Part shown: positions 877-20,794 of the stretch, piece after piece
Position numbering within the stretch: position 1 is the stretch's first letter
How the letters are laid out: each line of letters begins with the position of its first letter
DNA from: a virus
DNA length: 22,538 nt
Direction: 5' to 3' (one strand)
IMG/VR virus record: IMGVR_UViG_3300034062_007749
Span: 1-22,538 of that record
Made by a program: the position numbers and the translations under genes
The notes under the pieces: model-generated
Databases searched by the model: none
The model's input: the letters and a program-made list of their open reading frames with translations, nothing else
What the model was told of the DNA's origin: nothing

Positions 877-934
877 TACGGCATGGATAGCTTGCGCAGG
901 CGACAAGCGTACCCCTTGACGTTTCCATGCCGTA
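877..934. repeat. Perfect 11-bp inverted repeat with inner hairpin, between capsid and glycosyltransferase genes
   Basis: TACGGCATGGA at 877-887 is perfectly complementary to TCCATGCCGTA at 924-934. Inside the 36-base interval, GCTTG (890-894) can pair with CAAGC (904-908). No T-run follows, so this is not an ordinary intrinsic terminator. A TTGACG at 916-921 followed by TATATAAG (935-942) resembles a promoter with a short 15-bp spacer, and the right arm lies in that spacer. It could be an RNA structure, an RNA-processing site or an operator. Confidence 0.6.
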
Positions 935-968
935 TATATAAGGGAATAACATACTAGGGGTGTTATGT

Positions 969-8184: not shown

Positions 8185-10592
8185 TGCAGATCATCATATC
8201 GGGGATTGACAGAACAAATCGGTTCCGCTCGGGTTCGCTGGAAATCGAAGACACAATCAACGAGCGCTCCATGGCACGTCTGCAACTTGTAGACGTGTCC
8301 ATGACGATGGATTTACAGGATGGGCAACAGATACAGATATACGATGACTATTCTACGCTTATATTTGCTGGGTTTCTCCTGTATCCGAAGAAGCATGTTC
8401 CGCTAGCTAAAAATGCGTGGTATTACGACGTAGAGTGCGTCGATAATCACCAAATTGCAGACAGATGGCTTGTAGCAAAAACATATACGAACACTGCCGT
8501 TCACACGATTGTAAATGACCTGTATACTACGTATCTCGTGCCAGATGGTATAACGCTAGGCAACATCGCTACAACGTCTGTAACGCTTGATAAAGCGTCT
8601 TTCCCAAGGGTTGGCACGGTGTCCGATGCGCTAAACGAGTTATGCGATATAACGGGTTTCAATTGGTACATTGATTATGACAAGAAATTTTATTTTACCC
8701 CTCGTAGCTTTTTTGTTGCTCCATTCGGAATCACCACTACGTCAAGTATAAACAATGTTCAAGTGCGACAAGACCGTTCGCAGTATCGGAATAGACAGTA
8801 CATCCGTGGTGGTCAGATACAGACGGATGAAATCGCATTAGAAAAGCCGACACCAAATCCCGATGGCGTATCTCGTGTTTTCATTACACGGTTTCCGATA
8901 TCGGATAAACCTAGAATATTTATAAACAGTGTTGAAATAACAGCTACGGATATAGGGGTAAACGGTGTAGACAAAAACAAAAAGTATTACTATGATGTGG
9001 GGAAGAACACGATTGTTCAGGACGGAACGCAGACTGTTTTATCAACAGCAGACGTGATACAGGTAACATATAAAGGCTTAATTTCCCTTGCCGTTGTATC
9101 GGAAGATCCCATTTCCATCGCAAACCGTGCATCGCTAGAAGGTAACACAGGCGTATACGAGCGTATCGATGTCGACACATCCATTGTGTCACGTGGTGAG
9201 GCGATATCGATTGCGACAGGAAAGCTTGAAAAATACACAAAAGTAGCGCGACAAATCACGTATGATACGTACACAGCAGGACTCGCCGCGGGGCAATTGC
9301 AAACCATCACGCTACCCGAATACAATATAAGCTCTACTGATTTTCTGATTGACAAGGTTACTATATCGGAGCTCGATGGAGCGGGGCGACTCGTATACAC
9401 GGTGCACGCTATCGACGGCGATCCACTTGGAGGATGGCAAAAATTCTACAACGACTTACTCAAACAAGACCTAAAAGCGAGTATCAGGGAAAACGAATTA
9501 CTGGTCATCCTCACCGCTACATCGGAAACGGAGGGCTGGACGGAGGCGGTAACACAGACAACACAAGCGTGTTTTGTTCCGTCTGAATTTTTGTATCCGT
9601 CAGATACTCTTATACCGTGCGGATTGCCTACTGGAACACTTTCGATATCACCGACGTCTTGGTCACCAACTGCAACTACCGCATCGACAACGATCAGTGT
9701 TACATCAAATGTTGCGTGGAATGTTTTCAGCAACCAACCTTGGCTTACGTTTACTCCTGTAAGCGGTTCTAACAACGGTTCTGTTGTGGCGACGGTGGCG
9801 CAAAACACATCTTCAACTCGAACTGGAGCTATCACCATCATTGGCGGAGGAGTGACGCAAACGGCGTCAGTGACGCAGGCAAGTATTCCGCAGTCAGTTT
9901 ACGCAAGTGTTACAAACGGAGATATTTACAAACAAACTGGTGGTACAGGGAATTTTGTTGCGTTAAGTCAAACGTCTAGGCAGTGGAGCGCAATGACTTC
10001 TGCTAATGGCAATGTATATTCTGCGGTTGTTTTTGGAGACATTTACATGCAAAGTGGTGGTACAGGGAATTTTGTTGCACTCGGGCAAACTTCAAGAGGG
10101 TGGCGTGGTATGACAAAACTCGGTAGCGATGTATATGCTTGTGTAAATGGTGGCGACATTTACAAGCAAACTGGAGGTACAGGGAATTTTGTTGGGCTTG
10201 GGCAAACAGTAAGGGGTTGGATGGCTATGGCAACCGCAAATGGAAACGTATACGCTTTTGTTCAAAATGGTGACATTTATATGCAGACTGGCGGTACAGG
10301 GAATTTTGTCGCACTCGGTCAAACAAATAGGAACTGGGTTGACGCAACATCTAATAACGGAAATGTTTATGCAGCAGTGAACAACGGCGACATTTACATG
10401 CAAAGTGGTGGTACAGGGAATTTTGTTGCACTCGGGCAAACTTCACGGACATGGACTGGAATGGCGTCCGCCAATAATGATGTATACGCGGCAACATTTA
10501 CTGGCGACATTTACAAGCAAACTGGAGGTACAGGGAATTTTGTTGGGCTTGGGCAAACGTCTAGACAGTGGTCGAAGATGACATCTTTGTAA
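8184..10592 (+). CDS. Baseplate / tail-associated protein with BACON-like domain and six-unit C-terminal repeat
   Basis: ATG 8184 overlaps the tape-measure stop and gives 802 residues; the frame is open further upstream to 7941 but that part lies inside the tape-measure gene. The N-terminal ~470 residues look like a baseplate hub or tail-associated protein (SGSLEIEDTINERSMARLQL, DGQQIQIYDD, YYDVECVDNHQIADRW, DALNELCDITGFNWYID). No separate distal-tail gene lies between this and the tape measure, so it may combine both roles. Residues about 482-568 resemble a BACON domain (LSISPTSWSP, ISVTSNVAWNV, GAITIIGGGVTQTASVTQA), a fold often tied to carbohydrate or cell-surface binding. Residues about 572-802 are six 39-residue repeats. 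The likely role is tail-tip binding to a host glycan. Domain calls are by eye; the repeats are certain, the BACON call is good, the hub call moderate. Confidence 0.8.
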   Translation: MQIIISGIDRTNRFRSGSLEIEDTINERSMARLQLVDVSMTMDLQDGQQIQIYDDYSTLIFAGFLLYPKKHVPLAKNAWYYDVECVDNHQIADRWLVAKTYTNTAVHTIVNDLYTTYLVPDGITLGNIATTSVTLDKASFPRVGTVSDALNELCDITGFNWYIDYDKKFYFTPRSFFVAPFGITTTSSINNVQVRQDRSQYRNRQYIRGGQIQTDEIALEKPTPNPDGVSRVFITRFPISDKPRIFINSVEITATDIGVNGVDKNKKYYYDVGKNTIVQDGTQTVLSTADVIQVTYKGLISLAVVSEDPISIANRASLEGNTGVYERIDVDTSIVSRGEAISIATGKLEKYTKVARQITYDTYTAGLAAGQLQTITLPEYNISSTDFLIDKVTISELDGAGRLVYTVHAIDGDPLGGWQKFYNDLLKQDLKASIRENELLVILTATSETEGWTEAVTQTTQACFVPSEFLYPSDTLIPCGLPTGTLSISPTSWSPTATTASTTISVTSNVAWNVFSNQPWLTFTPVSGSNNGSVVATVAQNTSSTRTGAITIIGGGVTQTASVTQASIPQSVYASVTNGDIYKQTGGTGNFVALSQTSRQWSAMTSANGNVYSAVVFGDIYMQSGGTGNFVALGQTSRGWRGMTKLGSDVYACVNGGDIYKQTGGTGNFVGLGQTVRGWMAMATANGNVYAFVQNGDIYMQTGGTGNFVALGQTNRNWVDATSNNGNVYAAVNNGDIYMQSGGTGNFVALGQTSRTWTGMASANNDVYAATFTGDIYKQTGGTGNFVGLGQTSRQWSKMTSL
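9897..10592 (+). repeat. Six tandem 117-bp coding repeats (propeller-like blades)
   Basis: Units start at 9897, 10014, 10131, 10248, 10365 and 10482; the last is 36 residues. The consensus reads VYA...NGDIY.Q.GGTGNF, then VALGQTSR.W..M. The core GGTACAGGGAATTTTGT recurs exactly 117 bases apart at 9942, 10059, 10176, 10293, 10410 and 10527. Units 2 and 5 share about 57 identical bases, and so do units 3 and 6, so a three-unit block seems to have been duplicated or converted. Six blades would suit a tectonin-like beta-propeller, a common lectin fold. Confidence 0.9.
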
Positions 10593-10840
10593 ACAGCTTT
10601 TCGGCTACAAGCTACACTCAGGCTACAAAAAAGCTGCAACACGTTTAAGGTTGAAAAGTTAGTATATATATAGCTTTTCTACCTCTATATATATAAAATG
10701 TAGTCTTGTAGTCTAAAATATATATAAATATATATAAAAAAATATGCGTTACTGCACGCAAGCACAGTAGCGTTTTAGAATGTATCAAATGTTCAGACTA
10801 CACGGCTACAAGACTACAAAAAGCTACGGAGGTGTGACGC
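10593..10840. other. Non-coding AT-rich spacer with repeated (A/G)(A/G)CTACA motifs
   Basis: No gene is visible in these 248 bases. The motif RRCTACA or a close form occurs in a left cluster (10603-10627), a right cluster (10795-10827) and twice inverted in the middle (TGTAGTCT at 10699-10706 and 10707-10714). Between them lie long TATATA runs (10663-10740). The inverted pair and the right cluster share 13 complementary bases (CTACAAGACTACA at 10806-10818). GAAAAGTTA (10653-10661) can pair with TAGCTTTTC (10671-10679). A weak promoter-like TTGTAG-17-TATATA lies at 10706-10734. The spacer probably controls the fibre genes downstream; an origin or recombination site is also possible. Confidence 0.65.
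10746..10776 (+). terminator. Possible intrinsic terminator in the fibre spacer
   Basis: GCGTTACTG (10746-10754) pairs with CAGTAGCGT (10765-10773), with two G-T wobbles, around a 10-base loop, and four T residues follow. The T-run is short, so termination on the + strand may be partial. On the opposite strand the same stem would be followed by a run of seven T residues, so it may work better in that direction. Confidence 0.4.
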
Positions 10841-17269: not shown

Positions 17270-17298
17270 TTGACGGCGTTATTATCATATTGTATACT
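17270..17298 (+). promoter_or_regulatory. Sigma-A-type promoter P1 for the gene at 17347
   Basis: TTGACG (17270-17275) and TATACT (17293-17298) are 17 bases apart. The spacer ends in ATCATATTG, a diverged form of the ATCATATGA found at the same position in P2 and P3. It comes directly after the late terminator and drives a single-gene unit closed by the terminator at 17796. Confidence 0.85.
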
Positions 17299-17878: not shown

Positions 17879-17907
17879 TTGACGCTATCGCAATCATATG
17901 ATATACT
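17879..17907 (+). promoter_or_regulatory. Sigma-A-type promoter P2 for the regulator-DUF2800 operon
   Basis: TTGACG (17879-17884) and TATACT (17902-17907) are 17 bases apart, with a TG extended -10. The perfect palindrome ATCATATGAT (17893-17902) overlaps spacer and -10, a natural operator position. The regulator encoded just downstream may bind here, but this is untested. Confidence 0.85.
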
Positions 17908-17963
17908 CTTATCAAGTCGCAAGGGAAACACGAGGCGACAAAATAAAAGGGGGAACACGCATT

Positions 17964-18293
17964 ATGGGTATTCTTATTGCAGAAAAGCGGCGTGATATGG
18001 GGATGACGCAACTGGAACTTGCGGAGCGCATCGGGGTACGACAGGAGACGATGTCACGCATCGAACGAGGGGCGCAGGTACCAAGCTACGTTGTCGCCAA
18101 AAGCATTGCAGAGGTATTAGGAGAGTCGAAAGCTTTCGAGCCTAGCGAGGGTAGCCATGAGCGATTTTTCCGCAACGCAAATCAGAGTCGAGCTTTCCGT
18201 TTCTTCAACATTGACGCTGTGAAAACGTTCCTAAGTGGTTCAGGCGTTGAGATTGACACAAGCAATATCTTTGGAGGAGGTGACAAGAGATGA
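17964..18293 (+). CDS. XRE-family helix-turn-helix transcriptional regulator
   Basis: ATG 17964 follows AAAGGGGG and gives 109 residues; the in-frame ATG at 17898 lies within promoter P2 and cannot be used from that transcript. Residues about 3-53 are a classic XRE helix-turn-helix: LIAEKRRDMGMTQLELAERI, then GVRQETMSRIERGAQVPSYV and AKSIAEVLG. The remaining ~55 residues (FRNANQSRAFRFFNIDAVKT) may serve dimerisation or ligand binding and match no domain I know. It is the first gene of an early operon, overlapping the DUF2800 start, so it may set the level of its own operon and of the other promoters with the ATCATATGAT palindrome. A lysogeny repressor role is possible but no integrase or divergent promoter is seen. 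Confidence 0.88.
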   Translation: MGILIAEKRRDMGMTQLELAERIGVRQETMSRIERGAQVPSYVVAKSIAEVLGESKAFEPSEGSHERFFRNANQSRAFRFFNIDAVKTFLSGSGVEIDTSNIFGGGDKR

Positions 18294-19318
18294 CGCAGAA
18301 ACACGCATTACTATCGCCAAGTGCAGCGTATCGGTGGATGGCTTGCCCCGCATCGATACAAGAGTGTCAAGAAGTGCCGTATAAAATGCCACGTGACACG
18401 AGCGCAGCAGAGTTAGGATCTAAGGTTCATGCAGCGGTTGAAAAAAAGTTTTCAGGGAAGGACGCAGAAGATGTTGAGGTGATTGAAAGCGCAGCGGACG
18501 ACTTTGTGGAGTATGTGAAGAGTTTCGATTTTGACACGGTGTACAGTGAAAAAACTCTATACATCAAGGAGCAACCCGATTGTTGGGGAACGGCGGATAT
18601 CGTAGGAGTAAAAGGCGACACGCTTTACATCATCGACTTGAAATATGGCATGTATCCCGTATCGGCGTTATGGAATCCACAATTGATGATATACGCTTGC
18701 GCCGCCTTGGATACACTGGATGGCTTGGAGCACGTGAAGGCGGTCACTATGATTATCTATCAACCACGATTAAAAAACATCGATGAATTCACGTTGTCAC
18801 GCAAATCGCTGGAAAACTGGAAGACAACAAAACTACTCCCATCCGCACAAATCGCACTAGGAAACTACGGAGAGTATGCGCTCGGAACGCATTGCCGATA
18901 CTGCCCCGCCAAAAGTGCATGCGTAGCACGAAACGGCGAAATTTTTGAAAGAGTCGTCGAGGCGTGTGGGCAGTATCGTGAGGTCACGGAAGATACGAAA
19001 TTGCAAATGATTGACAATATCATGAAACGTCACGATGAGTTATCGAAGTTTCTTAAAGAAGTTAAGGAATACGCACATTATGCGATGACGCAGGGTCATG
19101 AGTTTGAGAGCGTCAAGCTCGCAGACGGAAACAAAACAAGGTTTATCACAGACGTTGATGGATTAATTGAAAAGCTGAAAGAATTGGGAATTGATGAATC
19201 AGATTATAAAGATATGAAAAGCGTCGCATCGCTTGAAAAGATCGTCGGCAAAGACGTGCTACAGTTTTTCGTTGGCGAGCGAGCAGGTGCTCCTGTGGTG
19301 AAGAGGAGGATAAAATGA
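18290..19318 (+). CDS. DUF2800 protein, PD-(D/E)XK nuclease-like with iron-sulfur cysteines
   Basis: ATG 18290 overlaps the regulator stop and follows GGAGGAGG; 342 residues. The protein begins LLSPSAAYRWMACPASIQ and shows the RecB/Cas4-type layout: E41 and H47 (AELGSKVHAAVE), D103 in GTADIV, D116-L-K118 in YIIDLKYG, then NPQLMIYACA (Q131, Y135). C19 together with C202, C205 and C211 (HCRYCPAKSAC) could hold an iron-sulfur cluster as in Cas4 and AddB. DUF2800 genes commonly accompany DUF2815 genes in phage replication regions. The probable role is nuclease or strand processing in phage DNA replication or recombination; activity has not been shown for this protein. The C-terminal third (residues 220-340) is helical and charged. 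Confidence 0.85.
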   Translation: MTQKHALLSPSAAYRWMACPASIQECQEVPYKMPRDTSAAELGSKVHAAVEKKFSGKDAEDVEVIESAADDFVEYVKSFDFDTVYSEKTLYIKEQPDCWGTADIVGVKGDTLYIIDLKYGMYPVSALWNPQLMIYACAALDTLDGLEHVKAVTMIIYQPRLKNIDEFTLSRKSLENWKTTKLLPSAQIALGNYGEYALGTHCRYCPAKSACVARNGEIFERVVEACGQYREVTEDTKLQMIDNIMKRHDELSKFLKEVKEYAHYAMTQGHEFESVKLADGNKTRFITDVDGLIEKLKELGIDESDYKDMKSVASLEKIVGKDVLQFFVGERAGAPVVKRRIK

Positions 19319-19630: not shown

Positions 19631-19659
19631 TTGCAATGGTTGCGCCGATGTGTTAATAT
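19631..19659 (+). promoter_or_regulatory. Sigma-A-type promoter P4 for the DUF2815 operon
   Basis: TTGCAA (19631-19636) and TAATAT (19654-19659) are 17 bases apart. The 18 bases before it match those before P1 at 14 positions (AAAAAGT...TACTG). Unlike P1-P3 it lacks the ATCATATGAT palindrome, so it is probably controlled differently. Confidence 0.72.
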
Positions 19660-19720
19660 GAAGTATAACGCTTTTGAGGGGGGCGATGCGTATGATTGTG
19701 TAAAGCCGTTGACGACACAC

Positions 19721-19780
19721 GAAACCGCATGAAACTGAACGAAACCGAACGAAACCGTATGAAACCGTATGAAACCAAAC
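19721..19780. repeat. Six iteron-like 10-bp tandem repeats (GAAACCGNAY)
   Basis: Exact 10-base periodicity: GAAACCGCAT, GAAACTGAAC, GAAACCGAAC, GAAACCGTAT, GAAACCGTAT and GAAACCAAAC, with another GAAACC at 19794-19799. They lie in the leader between promoter P4 and the DUF2815 start. Ten bases is close to one helical turn, so a protein could bind each unit on one face of the DNA. Options are an origin-type iteron array, a regulator site, or a structured leader RNA. Confidence 0.85.
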
Positions 19781-19799
19781 AAGGGGAGCAGATGAAACC

Positions 19800-20765: not shown

Positions 20766-20794
20766 TTGACATCGTCGCTATCATATGATACAAT
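20766..20794 (+). promoter_or_regulatory. Sigma-A-type promoter P3 for the downstream early genes
   Basis: TTGACA (20766-20771, consensus) and TACAAT (20789-20794) are 17 bases apart, with TG extended -10. The 12-base palindrome TATCATATGATA (20779-20790) overlaps the spacer and -10, matching P2. Confidence 0.88.

Follow-up and report, generated by a model that had tools for sequence, protein, structure and literature searches.

A phased repeat array in the leader of an SSB gene

What are six short direct repeats doing immediately ahead of a phage gene for a single-stranded DNA-binding protein (SSB)? They lie in a 22,538-base virus record (hereafter the window, meaning the whole of the stretch analysed), whose called genes are all on one strand. 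The protein belongs to the Enc34 family, with a Pfam PF10991 match of 164 bits against a curated cut-off of 26, and its solved relatives in the PDB are 4jg2, 4klk and 5odj/5odk/5odl (5odj, E 3.9e-18). The neighbours of the array are a DUF2800 gene, small ORFs and the SSB gene itself, and an XRE-type protein is encoded nearby (17898–18293). A DUF2800-like gene followed by the SSB gene is an order common to the window, Chi, Enc34, Stilesk and many others.

The array units, in order GAAACCGCAT, GAAACTGAAC, GAAACCGAAC, GAAACCGTAT, GAAACCGTAT and GAAACCAAAC, keep an exact 10-base register (Table 1). TRF recovers them at 19719–19780 with a period of 10, and the self-match at lag 10 is 42/50; of 200 first-order Markov randomisations of the complete window, none scored above 33. 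An initial annotation had described the array as GAAACCGNAY repeats lying between a promoter, P4, and the start of the DUF2815 gene. The six units, their exact spacing and their position all hold, with P4 being a predicted promoter, but units 2 and 6 depart from that consensus. The promoter was read from the sequence, and a consensus promoter scan did not return it. Transcription from it is predicted to start near 19666–19668, so that the array would begin about 55 nt downstream.

Table 1. Features of the array, its leader and the flanking genes in the window.
Feature	Position	Strand	Basis or remark
DUF2800 / PD-(D/E)XK exonuclease-like gene, usually found next upstream of SSB	18290–19318	+	
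Sigma-A-type promoter TTGCAA-17-TAATAT (prediction)	19631–19659	+	Read from sequence; kept in L004 and L005
32-nt block identical in all three phages	19663–19694	+	Longest invariant run, three-way alignment
Possible leader mini-ORF ATGCGTATGATTGTGTAA (MRMIV*)	19686–19703	+	Sequence
AAGCC, a degenerate copy outside the register, 19 nt upstream of unit 1	19703–19707	+	Sequence
Six-unit array, 10-nt GAAACCRNAY repeats; putative operator in the SSB mRNA	19721–19780	+	Sequence, TRF, shuffles, relatives
SSB Shine–Dalgarno GGGGAG, separated from the array by 2 nt	19783–19788	+	
Extra out-of-register GAAACC directly before the SSB start codon	19794–19799	+	GAACCC in L005, so not kept
Enc34-family SSB (PF10991, DUF2815), 180 aa	19800–20342	+	Pfam E 3.7e-48

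Conservation and folding of the leader

IMG/VR contains two relatives with the window's layout, G001 (33.6 kb; array locus L004) and G002 (32.5 kb; L005). G001 is probably a complete circular genome, since its terminal 30 bases are found again close to its start. The genomes of the three phages are approximately 81–89 per cent identical, and the SSBs of G001 and G002 are 97 and 94 per cent identical to that of the window. A scan of GTDB genomes for close relatives returned only distant Erysipelotrichaceae loci, all lacking the array.

The search for the same array in close relatives had been set beforehand as a refutation test, and the array survived it. Between promoter and SSB gene, G001 carries five units and G002 carries six, the first of which reads GAAGCC. 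There are no AAACC pairs at 10-nt spacing elsewhere in either genome. Across the seventeen units of the three phages, positions A2, A3 and C5 are invariant and the other positions of the GAAACC core vary little (entropy 0–0.52 bits), whereas the spacer varies, with G-N-A-Y giving way to GTAG or AAAC (up to 1.55 bits). The two closest phages are one whole unit apart, with the register kept. A difference of one unit between close relatives is what neutral slippage, duplicating units in tandem within an A-rich leader, might produce, but the near-invariance of the core while the spacer varies from unit to unit, and the recurrence of the same core in distant SSB leaders (described below), make slippage a highly improbable explanation. 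We also considered a coding repeat, as in the window a reading frame stays open from an ATG at 19729 as far as a TGA that overlaps the start of the SSB gene. This reading was dropped: the frame is closed in L004, the L005 array has no ATGs, and the peptide is not conserved.

Upstream of the array, the promoter reads TTGCAA/TAGTAT in L004 and TTGCAG/TAGTAT in L005. The invariant 32-nt block includes a strong Shine–Dalgarno sequence (SD), GAGGGGGG, at 19676–19683, and a G-U-rich hairpin (CGCTTT..GGGGCG, 19669–19685) that appears in the centroid folds of the window and L004. This possible 5' hairpin is short, and no pseudoknot was shown. The start of the mini-ORF and its SD are kept in the relatives, while its end varies (MRMIVRNR*, MRMLV*). 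The block may be a 5' mRNA stabiliser, a leader peptide or a nucleation site for SSB. The AAGCC copy that is out of register in the window stands in register in L005 (GAAGCCGTAG).

A structured mRNA had been among the possibilities raised initially. Relative to shuffled sequences, however, the leader folds worse in the window (z = +2.06, where positive values indicate worse folding), in L004 (+2.27) and in the other relative (+0.96). By this computed measure the array leader does not look like a structured RNA, and an Rfam scan of the window gave no match there.

Repeat leaders of distant SSB genes

We collected seventy-three Enc34/Chi-type SSB loci with 24–100 per cent identity to the Chi SSB. 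The SSB leader of phage Chi reads GTAAACCCGTAAAACCGTAGAAAGTAAACCCGTAAAACAGTAAACCGAGG, and very many of these loci have iterated GTAAAMCC, GTAAATCG, GAAACCC or GTAGACC words, spaced 7–9 nt apart, directly before the SD (examples are L233/L204, with nine 8-nt GTAAAMCM-type units, L248, L251, L262, L266 and L278). Leaders of the AAACC type occur in Chi, in Enc34-like, Providencia, Klebsiella and Proteus phages, and in many uncultured phages, and many of the Enc34/Chi-type (Casjensviridae-like) SSBs that have them are only 25–40 per cent identical in protein. Like the window, these loci combine a PF10991 SSB, iterated AAACC/AAATC words abutting the SD and a DUF2800-like gene upstream. They differ in their GTAAAMCC words, in their 7–9-nt period (self-match is highest at lag 8–9 for the Enc34 group, as against lag 10 for the window clade) and in that no dedicated promoter was seen.

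The density of AAACC is 15.0/kb in the Enc34/Chi-type leaders and 1.4/kb in the other intergenics of the same loci (a modest control set of seventy-one). The reverse complement, GGTTT, reaches only 1.2/kb in these leaders, so the motif is confined to the sense strand. When the window is left out, no 5-mer is more enriched in SSB leaders than AAACC (23 occurrences, 1.9 expected). At least two motifs are present in 20/69 SSB leaders when proteins are clustered at 70 per cent, compared with 2/129 other starts, also a modest control (Fisher, P = 1e-8), and at least three in 5/29 leaders from 45 per cent-identity clusters, compared with 0.25 per cent of background windows (P = 4e-8), although both P-values overstate independence, as the clusters share ancestry that clustering does not fully remove. 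In Chi, in two further genomes of this type (G397, G400) and in the window, G001 and G002, no other 60-nt stretch of the genome, on either strand, has as many AAACC words as the SSB leader; the leader is not unique in this respect in G398, G401 and G402.

These repeats are not a property of the whole family. No such array turned up when PF10991 genes were surveyed in genomes and phages of Firmicutes and Bacteroidota, and the SSB gene there mostly comes straight after DUF2800. We therefore rejected a family-wide claim, as most of these relatives lack repeats or have no leader at all. In a tree of seventy-two SSBs, the window clade falls among the Firmicutes/Bacteroidota sequences and away from the Enc34 group. 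This placement suggests that the repeats either arose by convergence or are ancient and have been lost many times. The initial statement that no family explanation was evident has nevertheless been superseded, as the motif recurs in the leaders of T7-type SSB genes. A literature search, from which subscription papers were largely out of reach, found no description of these repeats, and those of the Enc34/Chi SSB leaders apparently have not been described before.

Phage T7 itself has GAAACCAAACGAAACC before gene 2.5, nearly the L005 sequence, with 10-nt spacing and just before the SD. The T7 leader contains GAAACCAAACGAAACCTAAAGGAG, which matches G002 (GAAACCAAACGAAACCAAGGAG) in word, spacing and place. 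As in the window, phased AAACC-type words precede the SD of a T7-type SSB gene, but T7 has two units only. Among fifty-five distinct T7-like leaders the motif pair was found in three, belonging only to T7 and its close kin. Generality across the T7 family was therefore rejected, since most T7 relatives lack the pair, and the parallel with gene 2.5 is suggestive only. We know of no operator role for the gene 2.5 leader, and found none.

Origin, DNA operator or passive leader

The initial annotation had raised the possibility of origin iterons. Like the iterons of plasmid and phage origins, the array consists of short direct repeats of about one helical turn beside replication genes, and two loci from other phages (L023, L035) do have GAAACC repeats at 10-bp spacing within putative replication genes. 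However, the array has neither an initiator gene nor an AT-rich unwinding element next to it, across lineages the motif keeps a fixed place and strand relative to the SD of a single gene, and in Chi-like phages the motif stands between two genes of one operon. A better origin candidate lies at 10592–10840, where TGTAGTCT/AGACTACA repeats in both orientations surround a long AT-rich stretch; the flanks of the array are less AT-rich. Iterons bound by an initiator are thus a very improbable account of the array. In G001, where the orientation is reversed, elements resembling the one at 10592–10840 are found at about 8204–8430 and 25496–25738, in opposite orientation to each other, one of them after a 784-aa gene.

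The exact 10-bp phase, equal to one helical turn, and the position just downstream of a promoter are also what might be expected if a phage or host protein bound the duplex and controlled promoter P4, by roadblock or repression; the nearby XRE-type protein would be a candidate. Against this DNA-level operator, which we think quite unlikely, the Chi-like repeats are spaced 7–9 bp, occupy an intergenic position within a single operon and continue into the SD. The motif is also invariably in sense orientation, and the other early promoters have a different palindrome, ATCATATGAT. This palindrome, or a close variant, overlaps the spacer and –10 element of early promoters (17270–17298, 17879–17907 and 20766–20794 in the window; about 27220 and 25775 in G001, reversed), and the array promoter lacks it. 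The palindrome is probably a repressor operator in its own right, perhaps of the XRE protein.

A third possibility involves RNA but no repressor: the repeats might hold the ribosome-binding site in single-stranded form, or serve as a standby site to which the 30S subunit binds, allowing fast synthesis of SSB as an abundant replication protein. The array does abut the SD, and its leader is less structured than shuffles. SSB leaders are also less structured than leaders of other genes in the same loci (mean MFE –8.4 compared with –14.9 kcal/mol; n = 20 and 14). A passive leader of this kind would not explain why a specific word, AAACC, appears in distant lineages, why the spacing is near-exact or why the repeats are absent before other genes of the same genomes. 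We consider it unlikely, though it deserves to be kept in mind.

A proposed autogenous operator in the SSB mRNA

For T4 gp32, control of an SSB's translation by the SSB itself is textbook knowledge. This protein nucleates on a 5' pseudoknot and from there spreads along an unstructured leader, which bears repeats and takes in the ribosome-binding site, and in this way it represses its own translation (PMC535899, PMC3014915). The leader in the window follows the same plan, with a 5' block, unstructured phased repeats and an SD, and on this likeness we propose autogenous repression here too. Both the window and the T4/RB69 gene 32 operator concern an SSB gene, with short repeats in unstructured RNA that includes the ribosome-binding site (UUAAA/UAAA in gene 32) and a structured element (in the window, a possible one) 5' of the repeats, and binding is proposed to be cooperative (PMC535899, PMC3014915). 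They differ in that gp32 is of another SSB family from the T7/Enc34 type considered here, that the T4 pseudoknot was shown by experiment and our short hairpin is predicted only, and that the window has the word AAACC in a regular 8–10-nt phase and is known from sequence alone.

We consider it probable, if some way from secure, that the array serves as an operator at the level of RNA, within the SSB mRNA leader, through which SSB represses its own translation. The array lies in the SSB gene's own mRNA leader and abuts its ribosome-binding site, and its short words are iterated in little-structured RNA. The initial annotation had listed an autoregulatory site for the DUF2815 protein among its options; a site at the level of RNA is the form favoured by the recurrence of the same motif, on the same strand and in the same place before the SD, in distant SSB genes. 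As the hosts differ and the SSB family is shared, SSB would be the natural common ligand, a single trans-acting factor for all of these leaders. We infer that SSB binds the leader RNA and does so in register. The leader would offer unstructured, iterated AAACC-type words running into the SD. When free SSB exceeds the available ssDNA, protomers would line up on these repeats, perhaps one per 8–10-nt unit, and would cover the ribosome-binding site, so that translation of SSB would be repressed. In the window clade, the conserved 5' hairpin and SD block could nucleate binding or stabilise the mRNA. Among the points against the operator are the lack of repeats in most Firmicutes and Bacteroidota relatives of the window's SSB and the restriction of the T7 pair to the T7 group; in addition, the repeat period differs between the window clade (10) and the Enc34 group (7–9), and any unstructured A-rich leader would favour translation too.

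T7-type SSBs are usually treated as sequence-independent. In the crystal structure of the Enc34 SSB there are nine nucleotides per protomer, and its acidic tail discriminates against dsDNA; only DNA was tested in that study, which states that sequence preference was not measured (PMC5686142). A broader proposal, which we hold tentatively and rate at slightly less than even chances, is that T7-type SSBs (Enc34, the window clade and perhaps T7 gp2.5) recognise, in the RNA of their own leaders, an operator made of AAACC repeats. Autogenous control through repeat leaders would then have evolved, or been retained, in several lineages of phages separately from T4 gp32, and the footprint of a protomer would determine the unit length. 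If so, a plain sequence signature would allow autoregulation of SSB to be predicted for many phages, laboratory phages among them (Chi, and possibly T7), and a sequence preference would be implied in an SSB family where preference has not been measured. Our literature search found no known regulation for this widespread T7-type/DUF2815 class of phage SSBs.

Other GAAACC arrays and further observations

Arrays of three GAAACC words were found at forty-one loci in IMG/VR, mostly in unrelated contexts (tRNA-end-like sequence, putative replication genes and others), and the array without its SSB context is therefore not diagnostic. Six loci (L031, L032, L037, L044, L050 and L061) have three related GAAACC words at 10-bp spacing, in several cases followed by GTATCAA-like sequence. 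We suspect that these triples are integrase arm-type sites common to several viral contigs, because L044 adjoins tRNA-end-like sequence, as an attP would. The array in the window, unlike them, is not in such a place.

Two further elements were observed away from the SSB locus. The sole Rfam match in the window is an int-alpA RNA (RF02996, 42.9 bits, above the gathering score) at 880–944 (+), between structural genes; no integrase was noticed in the phage. In G002, a strong 9-bp tandem repeat (lag-9 self-match 51/51) occupies 25074–25180, near a tail-region gene.
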